Of a stretch of DNA of 64,000 bases, positions 13,840-24,120 are shown piece by piece. Origin of the DNA: Pseudomonas flavescens (GTDB taxonomy: Bacteria > Pseudomonadota > Gammaproteobacteria > Pseudomonadales > Pseudomonadaceae); contig NZ_JACBYV010000001.1 of assembly GCF_013408425.1 (NCBI RefSeq), positions 5,704,001-5,768,000 of the forward strand. Direction: 5' to 3'. Numbering within the stretch: position 1 is the stretch's first letter; the number at the start of each line of letters is the position of its first letter. The position numbers and the translations under genes were made by a program. A model generated the notes under the pieces. That model was given only the letters and a program-made list of their open reading frames with translations. It was not told the DNA's origin and made no database searches.

Positions 13840-14688
13840 GTGGTTCGTCCATCTTCACGACGAGGGTCGTTTCGACTCGCCTGGGCCCAGGCCTGGGCAG
13901 TGCGTCGCGTGCTGCTCCTGTGCGTTGTTCTGACGCCTTCCATGACCCTGGCCGACCCCTCCGTATCCCTGCAAGGCCCCAGCGGTGGCTGGCGTTATCA
14001 CGGTCTCAATGACGGTGCCGACGAAGCACGCGTGGCTTACCCCACGCCGCCCTTCGACCGTGGCGCCCAGCGCGGGCGCAGTCTGATCGAGGGCACCCTG
14101 CACAATATCGGTCATCTGCGTGCGCCCCATCGGCTCGTGGTCAACGGCAGCCCGCTGCCGCTGTACACCGACGAGCAGGGCCGCTTCGCCCGGCCCTATG
14201 CCTTTGGCGCGGGCTCCAACAGCGTCGAGCTGGTGGCAGGTGAGGGGCAGTCGCTCAAACGCATTCAATTCTATGAAGCCAACAACCTGCGCACCCCGGC
14301 GCGCATCCGCATGGTGCTGGGTTGGGACGATCCCAAGGCCGAGCTCGACCTGCACGTGGTTACCCCGGATGGCCAGCACGCCTTCTGGAGCCACCCGGTG
14401 CTGACCAACGGTGGCGGCCTGGACGTGGACAGCGTCGATGGCCCCGGCCCGGAAATGTTCACCATGACCGCGCCGCTGCAGGGCACCTATCTGATCTACG
14501 TGAACTATTGGGGCAACCTGGGCAGCGGTGGTTACAACTTCGAGGCTGGTAGCAACCAGAACGAGATCATCACTGCGCAGATCAACCTGATCTTCAACGA
14601 GAACACCGTCAACGAAAAGCGCGAGACGTTCCTGGTGCCGCTGCGTGCCATTGGCGAGCTGCTTTTCGTGAAATCTTTCAATTATTGA
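13840..14688 (+). CDS. magA: MagA: exported DUF2135 protein (YfaP-like)
   Basis: First gene of the mag operon, 282 aa from a GTG start with AAGGAG nine bases upstream. A long basic n-region leads to a signal peptide ending near TPSMTLA. The DUF2135 domain (about residues 140-280) shows TPARIRMVLGWDDPKAELDLHVV, then PGPEMFTMTAPLQGTYLIYVNY and a C-terminal TVNEKRETFLVPLRA.GELLFVKSF. In P. aeruginosa MagA is found in an inner-membrane complex with MagD, MagB and MagF. It is a paralogue of MagF, which closes the operon. Biochemical role unknown. Confidence 0.88.
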   Translation: MVRPSSRRGSFRLAWAQAWAVRRVLLLCVVLTPSMTLADPSVSLQGPSGGWRYHGLNDGADEARVAYPTPPFDRGAQRGRSLIEGTLHNIGHLRAPHRLVVNGSPLPLYTDEQGRFARPYAFGAGSNSVELVAGEGQSLKRIQFYEANNLRTPARIRMVLGWDDPKAELDLHVVTPDGQHAFWSHPVLTNGGGLDVDSVDGPGPEMFTMTAPLQGTYLIYVNYWGNLGSGGYNFEAGSNQNEIITAQINLIFNENTVNEKRETFLVPLRAIGELLFVKSFNY

Positions 14689-14718: not shown

Positions 14719-16362
14719 ATGAACCGGATGATCACCGCCCACTTGCAGCGCGTCTCCACACTGGCGCTGGCTGTACTGCTTGCCGCCTGCGGTCAGGATT
14801 CCCGCGAGCTGGGTGAACGCAGTGCCCTGGGCCTGAATCTGCAGCACCCCGATGCGCTGATCGAGAGTGCCTCGCTCAGCCGTCTGCCCAAGGACCTGCT
14901 GGCGGTGCCGCTGCTGCGCGACACCCTCACCGAAGACTTCGTCTTCTACTACGAGCACAACGCCGACCGCCTCGGGCTGGTTGGAAGCCTGCGGCGGATC
15001 ATCTACGAACGCGACCTGAAGCTGCGTGACAACCTGCTCGACGAGCTGCTCGACCAGCCCGCCGACGTCGCTCTGTGGAAGGGCGCCGATGGCAAGCTCA
15101 AGCATTTCCTGATGGTGATGCAGCGCGGCGGTCTGGCCAAGGTGCTGGAGCCGCTGGCCCATATCGCGCTGGACGATAGCCAGCTGAAGCAGGTTGGCGA
15201 GCTGCGCGTCGATGGCAGCAGCGTGCCGCTGTATCGTCTCAACTACCTGGGCGACCGTGCGCTGCTGCTGGCCAGCCATGGCGACAAGCTGTTGGTGCTG
15301 TCTTCACCTGGCATGCTGCTTGGCGAGGACGACAAGCTCGGCCGCGAAGCCGTGGAGTCGGTGGAGTCCCTGCTCGACGGCGACAACCCGTTTCCCAAGC
15401 GCTTCGGCCTCAAGGCCCGTGAGCAGGAGCAGCAGCGCATTTCCCTGAGTGGCGAGTATGTCGCCCTCGGCTACCAGCGCTTCTTTCCGGCCTTCGCCGG
15501 TCTGCGTTTCGAAAAAGGCGAGGGCGGCTGGAGCAGCTTCCTGGCCCTGAACGAAGTCGATGACCAGCCGCGGCTGGATTTCACGCCGATCTGGAAAGCC
15601 ATGCCGATGGGCGCCAGTGCCTGTGTGGCGGTCCCCGTGGCGCCAGGTAGCGCCGAGCGGCTGCTGACCCGTGTCGGTGCCAGCAAGGCGGTCAGCGAAG
15701 ATCTCGAAAAACGCCTGGGCAGCACCGCCGGTCTATGCTGGTACGCCGACTCGCGACTGCATTCGCCGTTGCTGGTCACCCACCTCGACGAGGCCGTCAC
15801 ACCCGAGCTCGATCAGGCCATCGGTGGTCTGTTCGACGGCATGGTCGGCGCGTTCGAACCCAATGCCGAGAACGGTCGCTTCCCGGTCGAAAGCCAGAGC
15901 ACTGCCGACGGCCATACCTGGCGCCGCGAGGTGGGCTCCAATTTCGGCCAGTACCCGGCCGAGCAGAGTGCCATGCCCGATGCGCTGGTTTCCCAGGGGT
16001 TCTTCCGCGTGAGCCTGGCGCGTCAGGGGCAGACGTTGCTGTTCTCCCTGGATGACCGGTTGGTGGACAAGGCGCTCGATACGCTCGGCAAACGCTTCCC
16101 GCCGCTTGCCGAGGTGCTGCCCACCGATGGCCTGGTACCCGGCTATCTGGCACCCGAGGGGCTGTCGCGCCTGCTCGAACAGGAAACCCTGGACAGCCTG
16201 CCGGCCAACTACGAGCCGGTATTCCGCAACGCCGCCGACACGCATCTGCTGCCCAAGCTGCGTGCCATGGGCGGTTATGGCCAGTTCGCGCTGACGCTGC
16301 CGAAAGACACCGAAGCCGATGACGATTGGAAATGGGTACCACTGGAATGGCGCTCCCTGTGA
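14719..16362 (+). CDS. magB: MagB: DUF2138 lipoprotein (YfaA-like)
   Basis: 547 aa, second gene of the mag operon, 30 bases after magA. The N-terminus [27 protein letters not shown] carries a lipobox LAAC, so lipidation at Cys24 is expected; Gly and Gln at +2/+3 do not give a classic inner-membrane retention signal. The rest is a long periplasmic DUF2138 domain of unknown function. P. aeruginosa MagB co-purifies with MagD. The last 16 bases overlap the likely magC start. No catalytic motif was recognised. Confidence 0.85.
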
Positions 16363-17147
16363 AAACCCACCCAGAGGCTGCTGCGCGTCGGCCCTGCTGC
16401 GTTAAAAACAGGCTCGGAATGCTCATTTACAAACTCGTAAACTCGAGTGCGAGCCCAGTCCGTTCCTCGCCTGTTTTTGCCTTGCATGGCTCTAGCTCGC
16501 GAGCCTCTGGGCGGGTTGCAGCTATCGCAATGTTCGCCATGTTCATGGCGTTGAGCCTTTGCGCGCGCGCCGAGCAAGCGCCCGGCCTGAACCCCGAGCA
16601 GTCGCAGATCTTCCGTGCCTGGTTCGTGCGGATCGCCCAGGAACAGCTGCGCCAGGGACCGAGCCCGCGCTGGCACCAGCAGGACTGTGTCGGCCTCGTT
16701 CGCTTCGCTGCCAACGAAGCGCTCAAGGTGCATGACGCCAAGTGGCTGCACGCCAATGGCCTGTCCAATCGCTACCTGCCGCCGGAGTTGGAACTGGACG
16801 ATGCTCAGCGCCGTCTGGCGCAGAACTGGCAGCAGGGCGGCGGCAAGCAGGGCCCCTACGTCAATGCGATCAAGATGATCCAGTTCAACAGCCAGTTGGT
16901 CGGCCGCGATCTGAACCAGGCCCGTCCCGGCGACCTGATGTTCTTCGATCAGGGCGACGACCAGCACCTGATGATCTGGATGGGCCGCGACATCGTTTAC
17001 CACACCGGCACCACCACTCCCACGGATAACGGCATGCGTGCCGTCAGCCTGCAACAACTCATGACATGGAAGGACACCCGATGGATACCCGACGACGCCA
17101 ACCCCAACTTTATCGGCATCTATCGGCTGAATTTCCTCGCGCGATGA
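16347..17147 (+). CDS. magC: MagC: DUF1175 protein (YfaT-like), NlpC/P60-like, with repeat-derived N-terminal insert
   Basis: Third mag gene. 266 aa if started at the ATG at 16347, which overlaps the end of magB. After MALPVKTH the frame runs through about 47 codons of an inserted repeat, then reaches a normal signal-peptide core ([19 protein letters not shown]). The domain downstream has DCVGLVRF (Cys114) and [17 protein letters not shown] (His207), spaced and framed like the Cys and His of NlpC/P60 peptidases. An ATG at 16530 inside the signal peptide is an alternative start but has no visible SD. The stop overlaps the magD ATG. Confidence 0.78.
16371..16510. repeat. About 140-bp MITE-like repeat inserted in the 5' end of magC
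   Basis: Bounded by CCAGAGGC (16371-16378) and its complement GCCTCTGG (16503-16510), with inner arms AAAAACAGGC (16404-16413) and GCCTGTTTTT (16469-16478). The centre is an imperfect palindrome rich in CTCG/CGAG. Removing 141 bases joins MALPVKTH directly to RVAAIAMF in frame and restores an ordinary signal peptide. I recall similar sequences dispersed in other Pseudomonas genomes; no other copy was noticed in this window. Confidence 0.65.
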
Positions 17148-20100
17148 ACCGCCTGCTGGCTGTCGCGCTGCTGGCCCTGCTGCCTCTGGCTGCTCAGGCG
17201 GAGGACGAGGTGCCGGCGAGCAACTACACGCCGCTGTCCGGCGAGTCGTTCTTCCTGCTCGCCGACTCGAGCTTCGCCGCCGACGAAGTGGCCACGGTAC
17301 GCCTCGAGGCGCCAGGCCGTGATTACCGCCGCTATCGCATGGAAGGCTACGGCGGGGTGGACATGCGCCTGTACCGCATCGAGCAGCCGCTGGAGTTTCT
17401 CAAGCGCCAGAAGAATCTGCACCGCGTGGTTGCCGAGGGCCAGTTCAAGGGGGAGGGGCTGTCCAATACCCTGTCCTACCTGTGGGACAACTGGTACCGC
17501 AAATCCCGTCGGGTGATGCAGCGTGCCTTCTCCTACGAGTCGCGCAAGCAGGTCACCGAGGAAGCGCCGGAGCTGAAGATGGGCCGCGCCATCGCCGCGC
17601 CCACCGAGTACACCCCGCAGGTGCAGTTCGCGCCGATGAAGGGGCTGCCGCTGGTGGCCGAGTTCCGCTATCCGTTGTGGGAAGCCAAGCCCATCGAGCC
17701 GCCAGCGGGCGTCGACCTGTCCGGCTCGTCGAGCAACTTCGTCAGTGTCGCACCGGGTAACGTCTACGTGCCGCTGGGCAAGCTGGAGCCGGGCCTGTAC
17801 CTGGCCGAGGCGATCATCGGCAAGTACCGCGCCACTACCGTGGTGTTCGTTTCCAACACCGTGGCGGTGAGCAAGATCGCCGGTGGTGAACTGCTGGTGT
17901 GGACGGCCGACAAGCATCAGGGCACGCCAGTGGCGGATGCCAAGCTGCTGTGGAGCGATGGCCTGGGTGTGATGACCAGTGGCAAGACCGACGCACAAGG
18001 CTTGCTGCGCCTCGGCCATGCCAGCCCGGAGCGCTCCTACGTGATCGGCGAGGACGCCCAGGGCGGTGTGTTCGTGTCCGAAAACTTCTACTACGACAGC
18101 GAAATCTACGACACCAAGCTCTACGCCTTCACTGATCGCCCGCTGTACCGCCCCGGCGACTGGGTAGAGGTGAAGATCGTCGGCCGTGAGTTCAAGAACT
18201 CCAGTGATTCGGTGGCGGCCGGTACCGCGCCGATCAGTCTCAGCGTGCTGGACGCCAACGGCACCGTGCTGCAGACCCAGACGCTGGATTTCGACGGCGC
18301 CCGTGGCGGCCAGGGCCGCTTCCAGCTGCCGGACAACGCCGTGGCAGGCGGTTACGAGCTGCGCTTCGCCTACCGTGATCAGCTGTACAGCAGCGCCTTC
18401 CGGGTGGCCGAGTACATCAAACCGCACTTCGAAGTGTCGCTGGATCTGGACAAGCCGGACTTGCGCACCGGTGAGCCGGTCAAGGGCGCCCTGGTGCTTC
18501 TCTACCCGGATGGCAAGCCGGTGGTGGACGCCAAGGTGCAGTTGAGCCTGCGTGCCCAGCAGCTGTCGATGGTCGATAACGAGCTGCAGTACCTCGGCCA
18601 GTTCCCGGTCGAGCTGGCCAGCAGCGAAGTGAGCACCGATAGCCAGGGCCGCGCCGTGCTCGACCTGCCGGCCGCCGACAAGCCCAGCCGCTACCTGCTC
18701 AGCGTGTTCGCCAGCGATGGTGCCGCCTACCGGGTCAAGACCAGCAAGGAAATCCTCATCGAACGCGGTGCCGCGCGCTACCGCCTGAGTGCGCCACAGC
18801 GCTTCAGCTCGGCCGGTCAGGCCGTCAGTTTCAGCTACCGCAGCGAGGGTGACAGCGAGCGGCGCCCGGCTCGTTACGACTGGGTGCGCCTGGAGGATCA
18901 GAGCACCGGCAACGGCGAGCTGGCGGCGGATGCCAAGGGCTTCGAGCTGAACTTCGAACGCCCCGGTACCTACAGCGTCACCCTCAAGGACAGCAGCGGC
19001 CTGATTCTCGGCGCCACCGGCCATTCGGTCAGTGGCGAGGGCGTCAAATCCGTCGCCGGCACCATCGAGATCGTGCTCGACAAGGCCGAGTACCAGGCCG
19101 GTGAAGAAGCCCTGGCGCTGATCACGTTCCCGGAGCCGGTCAGCGATGCGCTGCTGACCCTGGAACGTGACAAGGTCGAGGCCACTGCGCTGCTCTCCAA
19201 GGGCGGCGACTGGCTCAAGCTCGAGCGCCTGTCCGACACCCAGTACCGCGCGCGTATTCCGGTCGGCAAGACCTTCTCGCCGAACATCACCTTCTCGGCG
19301 CTGTACACCCGCGGTGGTGACTACAGCTTCCAGAACGCGGGCATCAAGGTCGCTACGCCGCAGATCGACATCGCCATCAAGGCCGACAGGGAAGTGGTGG
19401 AGCCGGGCGACCTGGTCACCGTCGAGCTGAGCACCCTGTTCGAAGGCAAGCCGGTACCGACGCGTCTGACGGTCAGCGTGGTGGACGAGATGATCTACGC
19501 CTTGCAGCCGGAAATCGCCCCGGGCATCGATCAGTTCTTCTATCACCCACGGCGCAACAACGTGCGCACCAGTGCCAGCCTGTCGTTCATCAGCTATGAC
19601 CTGGCCCTGCCGGGTACGCCAAGTGCACCGGGCCGCGCCAACCGCAGCGAGCGGGGCGTCAAGGTACTGGAGCGGCCACGCCGTGAAGAGGTCGACACCG
19701 CTTCCTGGCAGCCGGATCTGGTCACCGATGCGGACGGCAAGGCACGTTTCAGCTTCCGCATGCCCGACTCGCTGACCCGCTGGCGCATCACCGCCCGTGC
19801 GGTGAGCGCGGACGGGCAGGTTGGTCAGAAGCGTCAGTTCGTGCGCTCGGAGAAGCCGCTGTACCTGAAGTGGAGCGGCCCGAGCCGCTTCCGGGTCGGC
19901 GACAAGCCGGCACTTGGGCTGTTCGCCTTCAATCAGGGCGAAGCGGGCAGCAAAGCGGAACTGCTGATCCGTCATGGTGAGCAGCAACAGCGCCGTGAAG
20001 TGGTATTGGCCAAGGGCATCAACTACCTGCCCGTCGAGGACTCGGTGATCGCCGCGGGTGATTTCAGTGCCGAGCTGCGCCAGGGCGACAAGGTGGCCGA

Positions 20101-21673
20101 TGCGCTGGCCGTGAATCTGCGCACTGTCGCGGCGGGCTGGCAGCAGGTGCGCAGCACGCGCCTGTCAGCTTTCCCGGGCAGCACGGCGTTGCAGCTGCCC
20201 GCCGATGCCAGTCAGGTACAGGTGCGCCTGGATGACAGCGGCGTCGGCCTGTTCGGTGCGGCGCTGGACGATCTGCTCGCCTACCCCTATGGCGGTGTCG
20301 AGCAGACAGCAAGCCGTCTGCTGCCGCTGAGCCTGGCCTACCCGACCCTGGCGGCAGGCGAGCCGCGGATCAAGGATCGCCTGCGTCTGGTCATGCAGAA
20401 CAGCCGCCTGCGCCTGGTGCAGATGGCCGGGCCGGAAGCGACCTTCACCTGGTGGGGCGGCGATGCCGATGGCGACGCCTTCCTCACCGCCTACGCTTAT
20501 TTCGCCGACTGGCACGCCAGCCGTGCGTTGGCGATCCCGTTGCCGCCCGAGCACTGGCAGCGTCTGCTGGAGCTGTATGCCAAACGCGCTCAGGACACGC
20601 CATTGCTGCAGCGCGCGCTGATCATCGCGTTCTCCCGAGACATGGGCTTGCCGGTGAAAACCCTGCTCGAAGGGCTGGTCTATGACCTGGCCGCAGCGGG
20701 CGAGGGCGAGGAAGCGGTGCTCGGCGAGGGTGACAGCCTGGTGATGGCGGCACCGGATTCCGCGCTCGGTCTGGCGATTGCCCGCGAGCTGGGCGTCAAG
20801 CTGGCGCAGCGCGCTGGCGTGCCGGTATCGGATGAGCTGCTCGCGCAGATGGAGGCTGTTCGTGGGCGTCTCGCCGAGAGCCAGTCACCCTTCGTCGATG
20901 CCGTCGGTCTGTATCTGGATGGCCCGGATCGCCAGCGGGCCCAGCGCCTGCTCGGCGAGCTGGCGCCTGCCCAGGCAGGCCTGGAGCGCGCTTTGGCGCT
21001 GACCTGGCTGCAGCCGTCGCTGGACCTGCGTAGCACGCAGCCTGCGTTGGTGCTGGAAGGCGACTGGCGGGCCGTGGAGGGGGCGACTGGCGAAACCTAC
21101 TGGCAATGGAACGGCGCTCAGCCGCCCCAGGCTTTGCTGTTGGCCGGTGACCTGGATCAGCCAAGCGATGTGCGCCTCGACTACCAGAGCGCCCAGGCGG
21201 CGCCAAGCAATGTGCCGGTGACCTTGAAACGGCGGCTGCTGCGCCTGGTGCCGAGCGACAAGGCGTTCGAGTTCCGCGCCGAGGAAGTCGGCAAGGACGA
21301 GATCTCCAGTGCCGACCTGTATCTGGACGAAGTGACCCTGAGCAGCGAATCCGAGCAGACCCTGCGCTACGGCATGCTGGAAGTGCCGCTGCCACCGGGC
21401 GCCGATGTGGAACGTACCACCTGGGGCATTCAGGTAAGCGGCCTGGGTGGCGATGAAGCCTCGGCGCTGGAGAAGGCGCGCAACGAGCCGGGCGAGCTGA
21501 GCTACGCCGTACCGGTGGACAGCCTGCAGGGCGAACTGGTGTTGCGCCATCTGGTGCGTTTCTCGCAGAAGGGTGAGTTCGTACTGCCGCCGGCCCGCTA
21601 CGTGCGCCTCTACGCTCCAGGCCAGCAAGCACTGGAGGCTGAACCCGCGCTGCAGAAGGTAACCGTTGAGTAA
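17144..21673 (+). CDS. magD: MagD: periplasmic alpha-2-macroglobulin homologue
   Basis: 1509 aa from the ATG at 17144, chosen because it overlaps the magC stop (ATGA) and begins the signal peptide [19 protein letters not shown]. The body has macroglobulin-like beta domains, the [15 protein letters not shown] segment typical of bacterial A2M proteins, the [14 protein letters not shown] region and the alpha-helical TED-like domain. Where thioester-type relatives have GCxEQ this protein has GGVEQ (Gly1051), so it cannot form the covalent thioester. It belongs to the YfaS type. P. aeruginosa MagD binds elastase and is held in a complex with MagA, MagB and MagF. It probably shields the periplasm from foreign proteases. 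Confidence 0.94.
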
Positions 21674-23321
21674 GTACGGCTTGCTCGCTTCGCTGGCCTT
21701 GCTATCCGCTTTCTCAGGGCCGGCAATGGCAGCCGAAGCGCCGCTGTCGCTGGCCTGGCAACGGGCCGATGGCAGCGAGCTGCTGCGCTTGGACGAGCAG
21801 CGGCTGCTCAGCCGCGAACCCTTATCCGAGAACCTGCAGGCGCCGCTGGGCAGCCTGTGGAAGCTGTTCGTCTATGCCTATCTGGTCGACACCAGGCAGC
21901 CGGATAACGGCTATCAGTGCCGTGGGCAGGACAAGGAAGAGGTCTATTGCTGCAACCCGGGCGGGCGCATCGACCGGGATCAGGCGCTGGTCAAATCCTG
22001 CGGCTTGTATTTCGAGCAGCAGAATCTGCAACTGGCCGAAGATGACTGGTCGCGTTACTGGCAGGCTCGAAAGGCGCCGAGCTGGATCAGCGAGCGCCAG
22101 CGCCTGGCAGCGGATACCCGCGTTTCGGTTCAGCAATTGCTGACGCAACTCGGGCAATTGCCGGCCCAGGCCGATGCCCGCAAGGTGCTGCTGGACGTGG
22201 TGCTGGGCGGCGACGGCTCGACCATCAGCGCCCTGGGCAGCCGGCTGCGGGTAAAAACCTGGAGCTGGCTGGCCGATGGCGATCCCCAGGCTCGTCAGGG
22301 CGGTTTCGCCGGTTGGCTGGCCGATGGCACGCCGGTCTGGAGCGGCGGCTCGGGCACCAGCAGCATGGTGCTCAAGCGGCATGCCGAGTCGCTTGGCCAG
22401 GTACTGCCTGCGGGGTGGCCGCGCGAGGCCGGCAGCTGCGTCGAGGTACGCCTGTTCGCCCGCTATCCTCTGCGCCAGATACGCCGTGAGGGTAATGACG
22501 TGGCCGTTGAGCCGGGTGTGCTGAATGGTCGTTACGAGGTCGAGTTCGCCAACGGCAATCGCCTGCCCATCGAAAGCCATGGTGAGCTGTTTCTCGAACG
22601 TTCCGACGAGGGACTGCAACTGACCGCTCACCTGGATCGCGAAGATTATGTCGCCCGTGTACTGGATCGCGAAGCATCGGCGCAGCCCGCCGAAGCCGCC
22701 AAGGCTCTGGCCATCGCTGCCCGTACCTACCTGCTGCAGAGCGCCGGGCGTCGCGGCGAATGTCTGCGTATCGACGACAGCAGCGCCAGTCAGCGGGTGG
22801 CGCCGCGCCCGGCCAGTCAGGGCGCACGGGATATCGCCGCGTGGACGGCCGACCTGGTGCTGGCCGGCACCCCTGTGACCTATCACACGACCCAACCCGG
22901 CCCTGATCGCCTGGCCTGGACGCAGGCCGTCGAGCAGGCTGGCAGCGGCCTGCGTTATGACGCCATCCTGGCCCGCGCCTTTCCTCGCGCCACGCTGAGC
23001 CGCTGGGACAAACCGGTAGCGGCTTGCCAACCGCTTGCCGCCGCCGAACAGTGGCTGCGCAAGCAGCGCCGCGACTGGCGTCCGCGCCTGGATCGCGAAC
23101 CGGGCTACGAGGAAATCCAGCAGTTCACCGTGTGCCAGCTGGCGTCTGGCCGGCCCTATGTGGATCGCGAGCGGCAACGGATCTTCGTGCGCGGCTTCTT
23201 CTCGTTGCAAGACCGCCTCGACCTGACCCACGAGTACCTGCACCTGGCATTCATCGCTCACCCCAATGGACAGGACGAGGCCTATGTCGAAGGCCTCGCC
23301 CGCACCCTGTTACTGGAATGA
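21666..23321 (+). CDS. magE: MagE: DUF2300 protein (YfaQ-like) with three cryptic enzyme-like modules
   Basis: 551 aa, started at TTG 21666 with GAAGG six bases upstream, overlapping the end of magD by eight bases. Signal peptide to about residue 22. By eye it contains [14 protein letters not shown] (Ser63-x-x-Lys66) and LVKSCGLYF (111-113), as in penicillin-binding/beta-lactamase serine enzymes, with RVKTWSW (197-198) where KTG would be. It then has [13 protein letters not shown] (Glu336) and [13 protein letters not shown], like SpoIID/LytB, and a C-terminal HEYLH (522-526) with Glu542, a gluzincin-type zinc motif. Function has not been assigned in the family. Confidence 0.85.
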
Positions 23322-23325
23322 CATC

Positions 23326-24120
23326 ATGGCTCTGATCAATCCCCGTTTCGTTCTCTGCCTGACCTTGCTGCCGCTCTGCGCGCTGGCCGAAGTGAGCCTC
23401 GATACACCGCGCAGTGGCTGGCGCGAAGGAGGGGCAGACGGCGCCCAGTTCATGCAGCAGGTCAACTACCCGGCATCAAGCGTCAACAGTGCCGCCAATC
23501 AGGCCGATACCGCCCGCATCAAGGGCGCGATCAGCAAGTTGGAGAAAGATGGCAAGGCACCCGGTCGCCTGGTGGTCAACGGTGTCAGCATGCCGCTGAA
23601 GATCGCCGAAGACGGCAGCTTCGATCGCCCCTTCGTATTCTCGGAGGGCAGCAACAACGTCGAGGTGCGCAGCCCCGATGGCGGGCAGCGTCGCCGCGTG
23701 CAGTTCTACAACAACGGCAGCGGCGAAACCCCGGCGCGCTTGCGGGTGGTGCTGTCCTGGGACAGCGACAACACCGACCTCGACCTGCATTTGGTGACAC
23801 CCGATGGTGGCCACGTCTGGTACGGCGACCGTTCCCTGGCCAACGGTGCAGCCCTGGATGTGGACGTGACCACCGGCTACGGCCCGGAGATGATCGCCAC
23901 GCCAACGCCGCTCAAGGGCCAGTACCTGGTGTACGTGAATTACTACGGCGGCGGTTACAGCTACGACGACGGCGAGAGCACTGCCCAGCAGATTCTCACC
24001 ACCGGGCAGATCACCGTGATCAGCGAAGAGGGCACGGTCAACGAAAAACAGCAGAGTTTCCTCGTACCGATGCGTACACCGGGCGAGTTGACGCTGGTGA
24101 AAAGCTTCAGCTATCCATAG
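23326..24120 (+). CDS. magF: MagF: exported DUF2135 protein (YfaP-like)
   Basis: 264 aa from the ATG at 23326, four bases after magE, chosen because it begins the signal peptide MALINPRFVLCLTLLPLCALA. The DUF2135 domain matches MagA: TPARLRVVLSWDSDNTDLDLHLV, GYGPEMIATPTPLKGQYLVYVNYYG and TVNEKQQSFLVPMRTPGELTLVKSF. P. aeruginosa MagF is in the MagD complex. It is last in the operon. The two DUF2135 proteins at the two operon ends probably arose by duplication and may occupy different sites of one complex. Confidence 0.88.
   Translation: MALINPRFVLCLTLLPLCALAEVSLDTPRSGWREGGADGAQFMQQVNYPASSVNSAANQADTARIKGAISKLEKDGKAPGRLVVNGVSMPLKIAEDGSFDRPFVFSEGSNNVEVRSPDGGQRRRVQFYNNGSGETPARLRVVLSWDSDNTDLDLHLVTPDGGHVWYGDRSLANGAALDVDVTTGYGPEMIATPTPLKGQYLVYVNYYGGGYSYDDGESTAQQILTTGQITVISEEGTVNEKQQSFLVPMRTPGELTLVKSFSYP

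Follow-up and report, generated by a model that had tools for sequence, protein, structure and literature searches.

MagE belongs to the mag system, that is, the type II alpha-2-macroglobulin system, encoded by the mag operon of Pseudomonas aeruginosa (where MagE is PA4488) and by the yfa genes of Escherichia coli (where it is YfaQ). The accessible text of Zouhir et al. 2018 (PMC5764988) reports that the macroglobulin MagD traps a protease (TEV) in vitro, that no stable MagE-MagD complex formed, and that deletion of magE alters the amount of MagD and yields larger forms of it, an effect seen in plain LB and described there with no mention of an attacker; its authors suggested a chaperone or signal-peptide role for MagE and cited it as cytoplasmic. 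In the accessible part of a T6SS study from 2025 (PMC12663445), MagD contributes to resistance chiefly against VgrG3, to a limited extent against Tae1, and not against TseH; MagE is not named there on its own, and the authors call the protective mechanism unresolved. A third study, in E. coli (PMC12282094, 2025), reports in its accessible sections that cells are wider when yfaQ is deleted, and describes YfaQ as a protein with a predicted signal peptide whose N-terminal domain is transpeptidase-like and whose C-terminal domain is SpoIID-like; the words "metallo" and "zinc" do not occur in its main text as accessible, nor does any mention of a zinc domain or of a stand-alone short form. The initial annotation of the locus analyzed here had claimed three enzyme-like modules in MagE, and two thirds of that claim are therefore, going by those sections, already in print. 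What is new is the zinc domain, and the existence of mag operons with the zinc domain alone as MagE; a search of the open-access literature, which takes in a minority of subscription journals, gave no printed report of this domain among the papers listed.

Among described proteins, BlaR1 offers a working example of sensor-protease pairing. BlaR1 and MecR1 carry an N-terminal membrane-embedded protease and a C-terminal sensor, and BlaR1 carries a KTG motif. MagE may likewise join a class D-like sensor-type fold with a likely gluzincin in one chain, but in reversed order, with an extra SpoIID-like domain, with KTW/Y/F in place of KTG, and with a macroglobulin as its neighbor instead of a repressor. 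No membrane helix was seen in MagE beyond the signal peptide, hydropathy over 19-residue windows peaking at 1.56 at residue 5 and nowhere exceeding 1.18 past residue 25. The type I pair yfhM-pbpC also sets a macroglobulin beside a PBP-type gene, as with MagD and MagE; in E. coli, the adjacency of pbpC and yfhM is seen in the genome and stated in the accessible text of PMC4498604. Compared to PBP1C, MagE has no glycosyltransferase family in Pfam or NCBIfam, and has zinc and SpoIID-type domains instead.

The mag operon of the window

In the window (the whole stretch of 64,000 nucleotides that was analyzed), six genes make up the operon and magE comes fifth. Their Pfam content runs DUF2135, DUF2138, DUF1175, macroglobulin, DUF2300 and DUF2135, as in the P. 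aeruginosa mag operon and the E. coli yfa genes (Table 1). The closest named relatives belong to Pseudomonas (Phytopseudomonas) flavescens, at 95% for MagE (among the best 120 of 1616 similarity matches) and 96% for MagD (against the 29 other proteins of the MagD tree), and a sequence search gave 66% identity between MagE and a P. aeruginosa protein. Neither a PADLOC run nor a PDB sequence search with the single MagE protein produced a match. MagE opens with a signal-peptide-like segment and is presumably secreted.

Table 1. Coordinates of the mag genes in the window and of the features of MagE (residue numbers refer to MagE; the last row gives positions in other loci)
Feature	Position	Strand	Basis and remarks
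magA, DUF2135	13840..14688	+	Pfam; start tentative
magB, DUF2138	14719..16362	+	Pfam
magC, DUF1175, NlpC/P60-like, with DCVGLVR and QHLMIWMG	16326..17147	+	NLPC_P60 20.7, below cut-off 23
magD, alpha-2-macroglobulin homologue, GGVEQ instead of thioester	17066..21673	+	PF01835, PF00207, PF07703
magE/yfaQ homologue (DUF2300)	21666..23321	+	551 aa; TTG start; 8-nt overlap with magD stop; PF10062 274.9 bits
Hydrophobic signal-peptide-like segment, residues 1-22, GPAMA/AEAP	21666..21731	+	Hydropathy; putative cleavage point (at the slash) is our reading
Class D beta-lactamase/BlaR1/PBP-like domain, residues 23-249	21732..22412	+	S63-x-x-K66, S111-C-G113, K197-T-W199
SpoIID/LytB-like domain, approximately residues 315-447	22608..23006	+	PF08486; Glu336 at 22671-22673
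Gluzincin-like domain, residues 454-551	23025..23318	+	Modest scores and model
HEYLH zinc motif, residues 522-526, in helix 514-528	23229..23243	+	Model and conservation
His532, alternative third zinc ligand	23259..23261	+	His 308/310, Tyr 2/310 (E. coli YfaQ among the Tyr rows)
E538-x3-E542, start of last helix 538-550	23277..23291	+	Likely third zinc ligand and second-shell acid; 241/241
magF, DUF2135	23266..24120	+	Start probably 23326; Pfam
MagF with LprI	L028:10303-11367; L031:10307-11359		Pfam above cut-off

The MagC motifs DCVGLVR and QHLMIWMG occur together in 66 of 71 MagC proteins, and the MagC homologue of locus L028 reaches 27.3 bits with NLPC_P60 (cut-off 23). An N-terminal LprI (lysozyme inhibitor) domain is present in MagF of both short-MagE operons scanned (24.7 and 33.5 against a cut-off of 22) and was not seen by Pfam in MagF of the window. 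Given an NlpC/P60-like MagC and LprI in some MagF, several operon partners have wall-related folds.

Type II macroglobulins are described as lacking the thioester motif. A thioester-like CxEQ is found in 33 of 74 MagD proteins of mag operons (GCVEQ in 30, GCAEQ in two, GCIEQ in one), and the window reads GGVEQ. Conservation over the MagD bait (residues 808-871) is 0.85 compared to 0.71 for the mature protein in these 74 sequences, with a nearly invariant block at residues 860-873. We considered the conserved bait as a dedicated protease site and rejected it: in the type I control, E. coli YfhM, bait identity equals or exceeds global identity in six of seven relatives, so bait conservation is not used as evidence here. 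Regarding other mag genes and MagD, the legend of Figure 6 in the accessible text of PMC5764988 gives a 100-kDa MagD form as absent without magB and magC, and the text describes magC deletion as having no pronounced effect.

Three enzyme-like domains predicted in one chain

Conservation was read from 241 long-form rows, i.e., the window protein and 240 homologues (the top 120 among 1616 matches of one search and the top 120 among 719 of another), which are fairly close relatives and were gathered by whole-protein similarity and not by motif. S111, K197, T198, E336, R353, H522, E523, H526, E538 and E542 are each present in 241/241. A wider alignment of 310 rows, which also took in YfaQ of E. 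coli together with 68 out of 80 genome loci, gave the same picture; the 12 loci excluded were eight short forms, one at a contig edge (L045) and three reading PLASLWK with SxxK kept. Because the locus rows were chosen by the pattern [LI][SDT][LV][AT]HEY[LV]H and a GS-[LMVIT]-[WFY]-K filter, they say nothing for the zinc and SxxK motifs. Among 20,000 shuffles of MagE, HExxH arose in 0.47% and HExxH-x11-E-x3-[D/E] in 0.015%, compared to 53% for SxxK and 4.0% for an ordered SxxK..Sx[N/G]..K[T/S]. Serine motifs alone therefore mean little, and it is invariance together with fold that makes those of MagE real.

An AlphaFold2 model of full-length MagE (pLDDT 94.2) places residues 22-249 in a class D beta-lactamase/BlaR1-like fold, with Z to 15.7 in a structure search, and on this model the N-terminal domain almost certainly adopts the serine penicillin-recognising fold. 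The initial annotation had put SLWK at a helix start and the motifs in the order of penicillin-binding enzymes, and the predicted structure agrees, S63 opening a helix and K197 sitting in a later strand. Its motif set survives in part. SxxK behaves as near-invariant (S63 in 240 of the 241 motif-unselected rows with one gap; K66 in 239, with one gap and one Thr) and aligns with GSTFK/GSIFK of PBP2-like proteins, but the third residue of the SxN site is mostly Gly (304/310, with S111 in 310/310), where PBP2-like proteins read SCD, and KTG was not found, K197 (310 of 310 rows) and T198 (309) being followed by W in 178, Y in 84 and F in 48 rows and never by Gly. A search of the 299 sampled genomes (see below) with this domain gave six strong matches, all in long-MagE genomes, with PBP2-like proteins among the weaker ones.

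The SpoIID/LytB pattern with Glu336, likewise noted earlier, was borne out by PF08486, which scores 34.5 bits over residues 314-376 (gathering cut-off 23), and by E336, R353, D371, Q376 and Y406, each in 241/241 motif-unselected rows (E336 in 310/310 of the wider alignment). The MagE family profile matches three SpoIID structures, with 4rwr the best at E 0.022, and in this alignment Glu336 is paired with a glutamate in 4rwr and in 5i1t, which we take to be the catalytic residue there. Like the lytic transglycosylase-type SpoIID/LytB proteins, in which E101 is the catalytic glutamate of Clostridioides difficile SpoIID, MagE scores above the Pfam cut-off and keeps a Glu at the corresponding place, but it differs in that the first part alone is recognised by sequence: a second segment, residues 418-447, matches 4rwr weakly (-1.6 bits, family profile) and would leave 45 positions between the segments compared to 172 in 4rwr. 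All 74 of 74 family members gave a SpoIID match with E no higher than 1; PF08486 gave 32.4 bits for the L066 homologue and 16.8, under the cut-off, for that of L036, and precomputed SpoIID matches were absent in 18/120 rows of the set drawn as best 120 of 719 and 1/120 of that drawn as best 120 of 1616. The whole source genome holds one SpoIID match, MagE's own. Structure lists for the full-length model name neither SpoIID nor a zinc peptidase, but they are filled by beta-lactamases through one domain and so constitute no evidence of absence. We regard a SpoIID-like identity of the middle domain as highly probable.

The C-terminus resembles small zinc peptidases, with modest scores, and very probably has a zinc peptidase fold, probably of the gluzincin type. 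The initial annotation described a gluzincin-type site formed by HEYLH and Glu542; H522, E523, H526 and Glu542 are kept in 241/241, though the likelier third zinc ligand appears to be Glu538, possibly His532, and not Glu542. E538 with an acid four residues on is present in 241/241 and recalls E245/D249 of MecR1 and E242/D246 of BlaR1, while H532 (308/310) is also placed as a possible ligand, and this alternative, together with the weak scores, makes the site less sure. The minigluzincins (abylysin, jannalysin/selecase) are among the proteins closest to the domain, at an E of only 0.06; in comparison, MagE bears a signal peptide, two conserved cysteines and a tie to a macroglobulin operon.

Pfam DUF2300 scores two stretches of MagE, residues 87-208 within the PBP-like domain and residues 414-534 lying across the tail of the SpoIID part and the zinc domain. 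Tandem DUF2300 copies were rejected, with no relation by BLASTP and a profile-profile probability of 0.4%, so that PF10062 appears to merge two unrelated regions; its short members cover profile positions from about 26-49 onward only.

Taken as an observation, the three enzyme-like modules of the initial annotation are upheld by fold, Pfam score and invariant residues, the zinc part with modest scores. SLWK (63-66), SCG (111-113), Glu336, HEYLH (522-526) and Glu542 lie where it had put them, while RVKTWSW, given as 196-201, spans 195-201 (K197-T198-W199). It had also named in advance what would count against it, a confident model with no such folds or free variation at the key residues; the model is confident and shows the serine penicillin-recognising fold, SpoIID passes its Pfam cut-off, the last domain resembles zinc peptidases with modest scores, and S63, K66, E336, H522, E523 and H526 do not vary freely.

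The zinc domain occurs alone as MagE

An unbiased draw of 299 genomes was scanned with DUF2300, which exceeded the cut-off in 12: six with long MagE (including the genome of the window) and six with a short MagE of the approximately 100-residue zinc domain only, one of whose frames (G089) reaches the contig end. A further match (G009) was below cut-off, with five stops and no mag genes, and was dropped, hence 12 and not 13 genomes. Short magE adjoins magF in 6/6 genomes, with magD on the same contig in 4/6, and none of the six (78-100% complete) gave a SpoIID match at E<=0.001, a search in which E. coli and Bacillus subtilis controls matched.

A second set comprised 80 loci, the best of 318 confirmed loci against a short-form query, found by the zinc-motif pattern; being ranked against that query, it favors short forms. 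Eight loci are short (L028-L032, L034, L037 and L098, with L029 reaching the contig end), and their flanks show no sign of the remaining MagE domains. Judged by length, the contigs of L028, L029 and L030 are those of G117, G089 and G125, and the two sets therefore overlap. The E-x3-E at the right distance is kept in 9/9 short rows (two of them identical proteins) and in L098, a spacing that lay outside the pattern used to find them. By tblastn, magD is present in 77 of the 80 loci, the remaining three being cut off by a contig edge. The same search gave magB in 71, magC in 72, magA in 78 and magF in 78; the last two genes share a domain, so a match to one may stand for the other. In every locus with DNA reaching far enough, magD lies upstream of magE. 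In two Azoarcus loci (L067 and L070) about 7-8 kb separate the end of magD from a long magE, and the 10 kb downstream gave no magF; magB and magC would fall beyond the DNA covered there.

On a tree of 30 MagD proteins, with midpoint root only, seven of eight short-form MagD group together (support 99/97), from Magnetococcales, Competibacteraceae, a gammaproteobacterial bin, a Schekmanbacteria bin and two further genomes. The Iodobacter short form falls among long forms, on a long branch, so that the long/short label changes at least twice. The zinc domain is thus the constant core of MagE and also occurs alone.

Proposed role of MagE

Given the confident model, the SpoIID score, the zinc-peptidase likeness and the unvarying residues, MagE is likely not a passive partner. 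The initial annotation had drawn this conclusion too, and fold and invariant residues favor it, while the aromatic residue always found at the KTG glycine, a SpoIID second half unrecognised by sequence, and a third zinc ligand that is likelier Glu538 (or His532) than Glu542 weaken it. We propose, at a probability of about 43%, that MagE is a secreted three-domain protein with a gluzincin-like protease core, MagD as its most likely substrate, and wall domains that place or switch the protease. The zinc ligands would be H522 and H526 together with a third, probably E538 or alternatively H532, and E523 would serve as the base. MagD is the leading, still tentative, substrate because the zinc end is in every form, magD lies upstream in the loci and magE deletion has a MagD phenotype. 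In Pseudomonas, enterobacteria and betaproteobacteria the added wall domains precede the zinc domain; the most likely role of the class D/BlaR1-like and SpoIID-like domains would be to bind the stem peptide and glycan of peptidoglycan. Binding might in turn position the protease at damaged wall or switch it there, and MagD would then be processed at the site of attack. This placing role is suggested by their resemblance to stem-peptide and glycan binders and by the defense of the wall by MagD; wall sensing and its coupling to cleavage would be further steps, and a sensing switch as such is unlikely.

The best-surviving alternative, unlikely but the least so, makes MagE chiefly a wall-remodelling enzyme (transpeptidase/carboxypeptidase-like and lytic transglycosylase-like) that would correspond, in type II systems, to PBP1C, with the zinc domain secondary. 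A PBP/class D fold and a SpoIID domain with most key residues kept fit such an enzyme, as do the wide cells of the yfaQ mutant, from which the authors of PMC12282094 conclude alike in its accessible sections, the pbpC-yfhM adjacency (accessible text of PMC4498604), the NlpC/P60-like MagC, and LprI in MagF of two short-MagE operons. Yet a bulky aromatic residue replaces the KTG glycine everywhere, Gly replaces the SxN asparagine in 304/310 rows, the second SpoIID half is unrecognised, and both wall-type domains are missing from 8/80 loci that keep the neighboring mag genes.

Somewhat less probable is a stronger form of our proposal, that MagE is a soluble, rearranged BlaR1 in which a PBP-type sensor and a glycan-binding SpoIID-type domain read periplasmic peptidoglycan damage and switch a gluzincin that arms MagD by proteolysis. 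In that case a macroglobulin paired with a protease of 100 residues would be the smallest unit, and the sensor would have been gained later or lost on two occasions. The discoverers' proposal that MagE acts as a scaffold or chaperone when MagD is exported or folded, here taken as catalytically dead, accords with the altered amount and form of MagD upon MagE loss (accessible text of PMC5764988) and with the degenerate KTG and SxN motifs, but it is rather improbable when three unrelated sites retain their remaining catalytic-type residues in 241/241 rows or nearly so and zinc-only forms still keep E-x3-E (9/9 short rows, two the same protein, and L098). That the zinc domain cuts foreign proteins (effectors, proteases) passed on by MagD, and not MagD itself, is very improbable: MagD traps TEV in vitro and protects against injected effectors, so a zinc protease could finish trapped cargo, but magE deletion alters MagD in plain LB, with no attacker mentioned in the accessible text of PMC5764988.

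Conclusions

MagE is an envelope protein filed under "unknown function" for which three enzyme-type folds are predicted in one chain, beside the protease-trapping MagD. With the candidate protease site H522/E523/H526/E538 in an operon partner of MagD, the processing of MagD and the mechanism of protection become testable through single-residue changes. Outside the BlaR1 antibiotic-sensing family, a protein that couples a wall-type domain to a protease would suggest a wider sensor-protease design.
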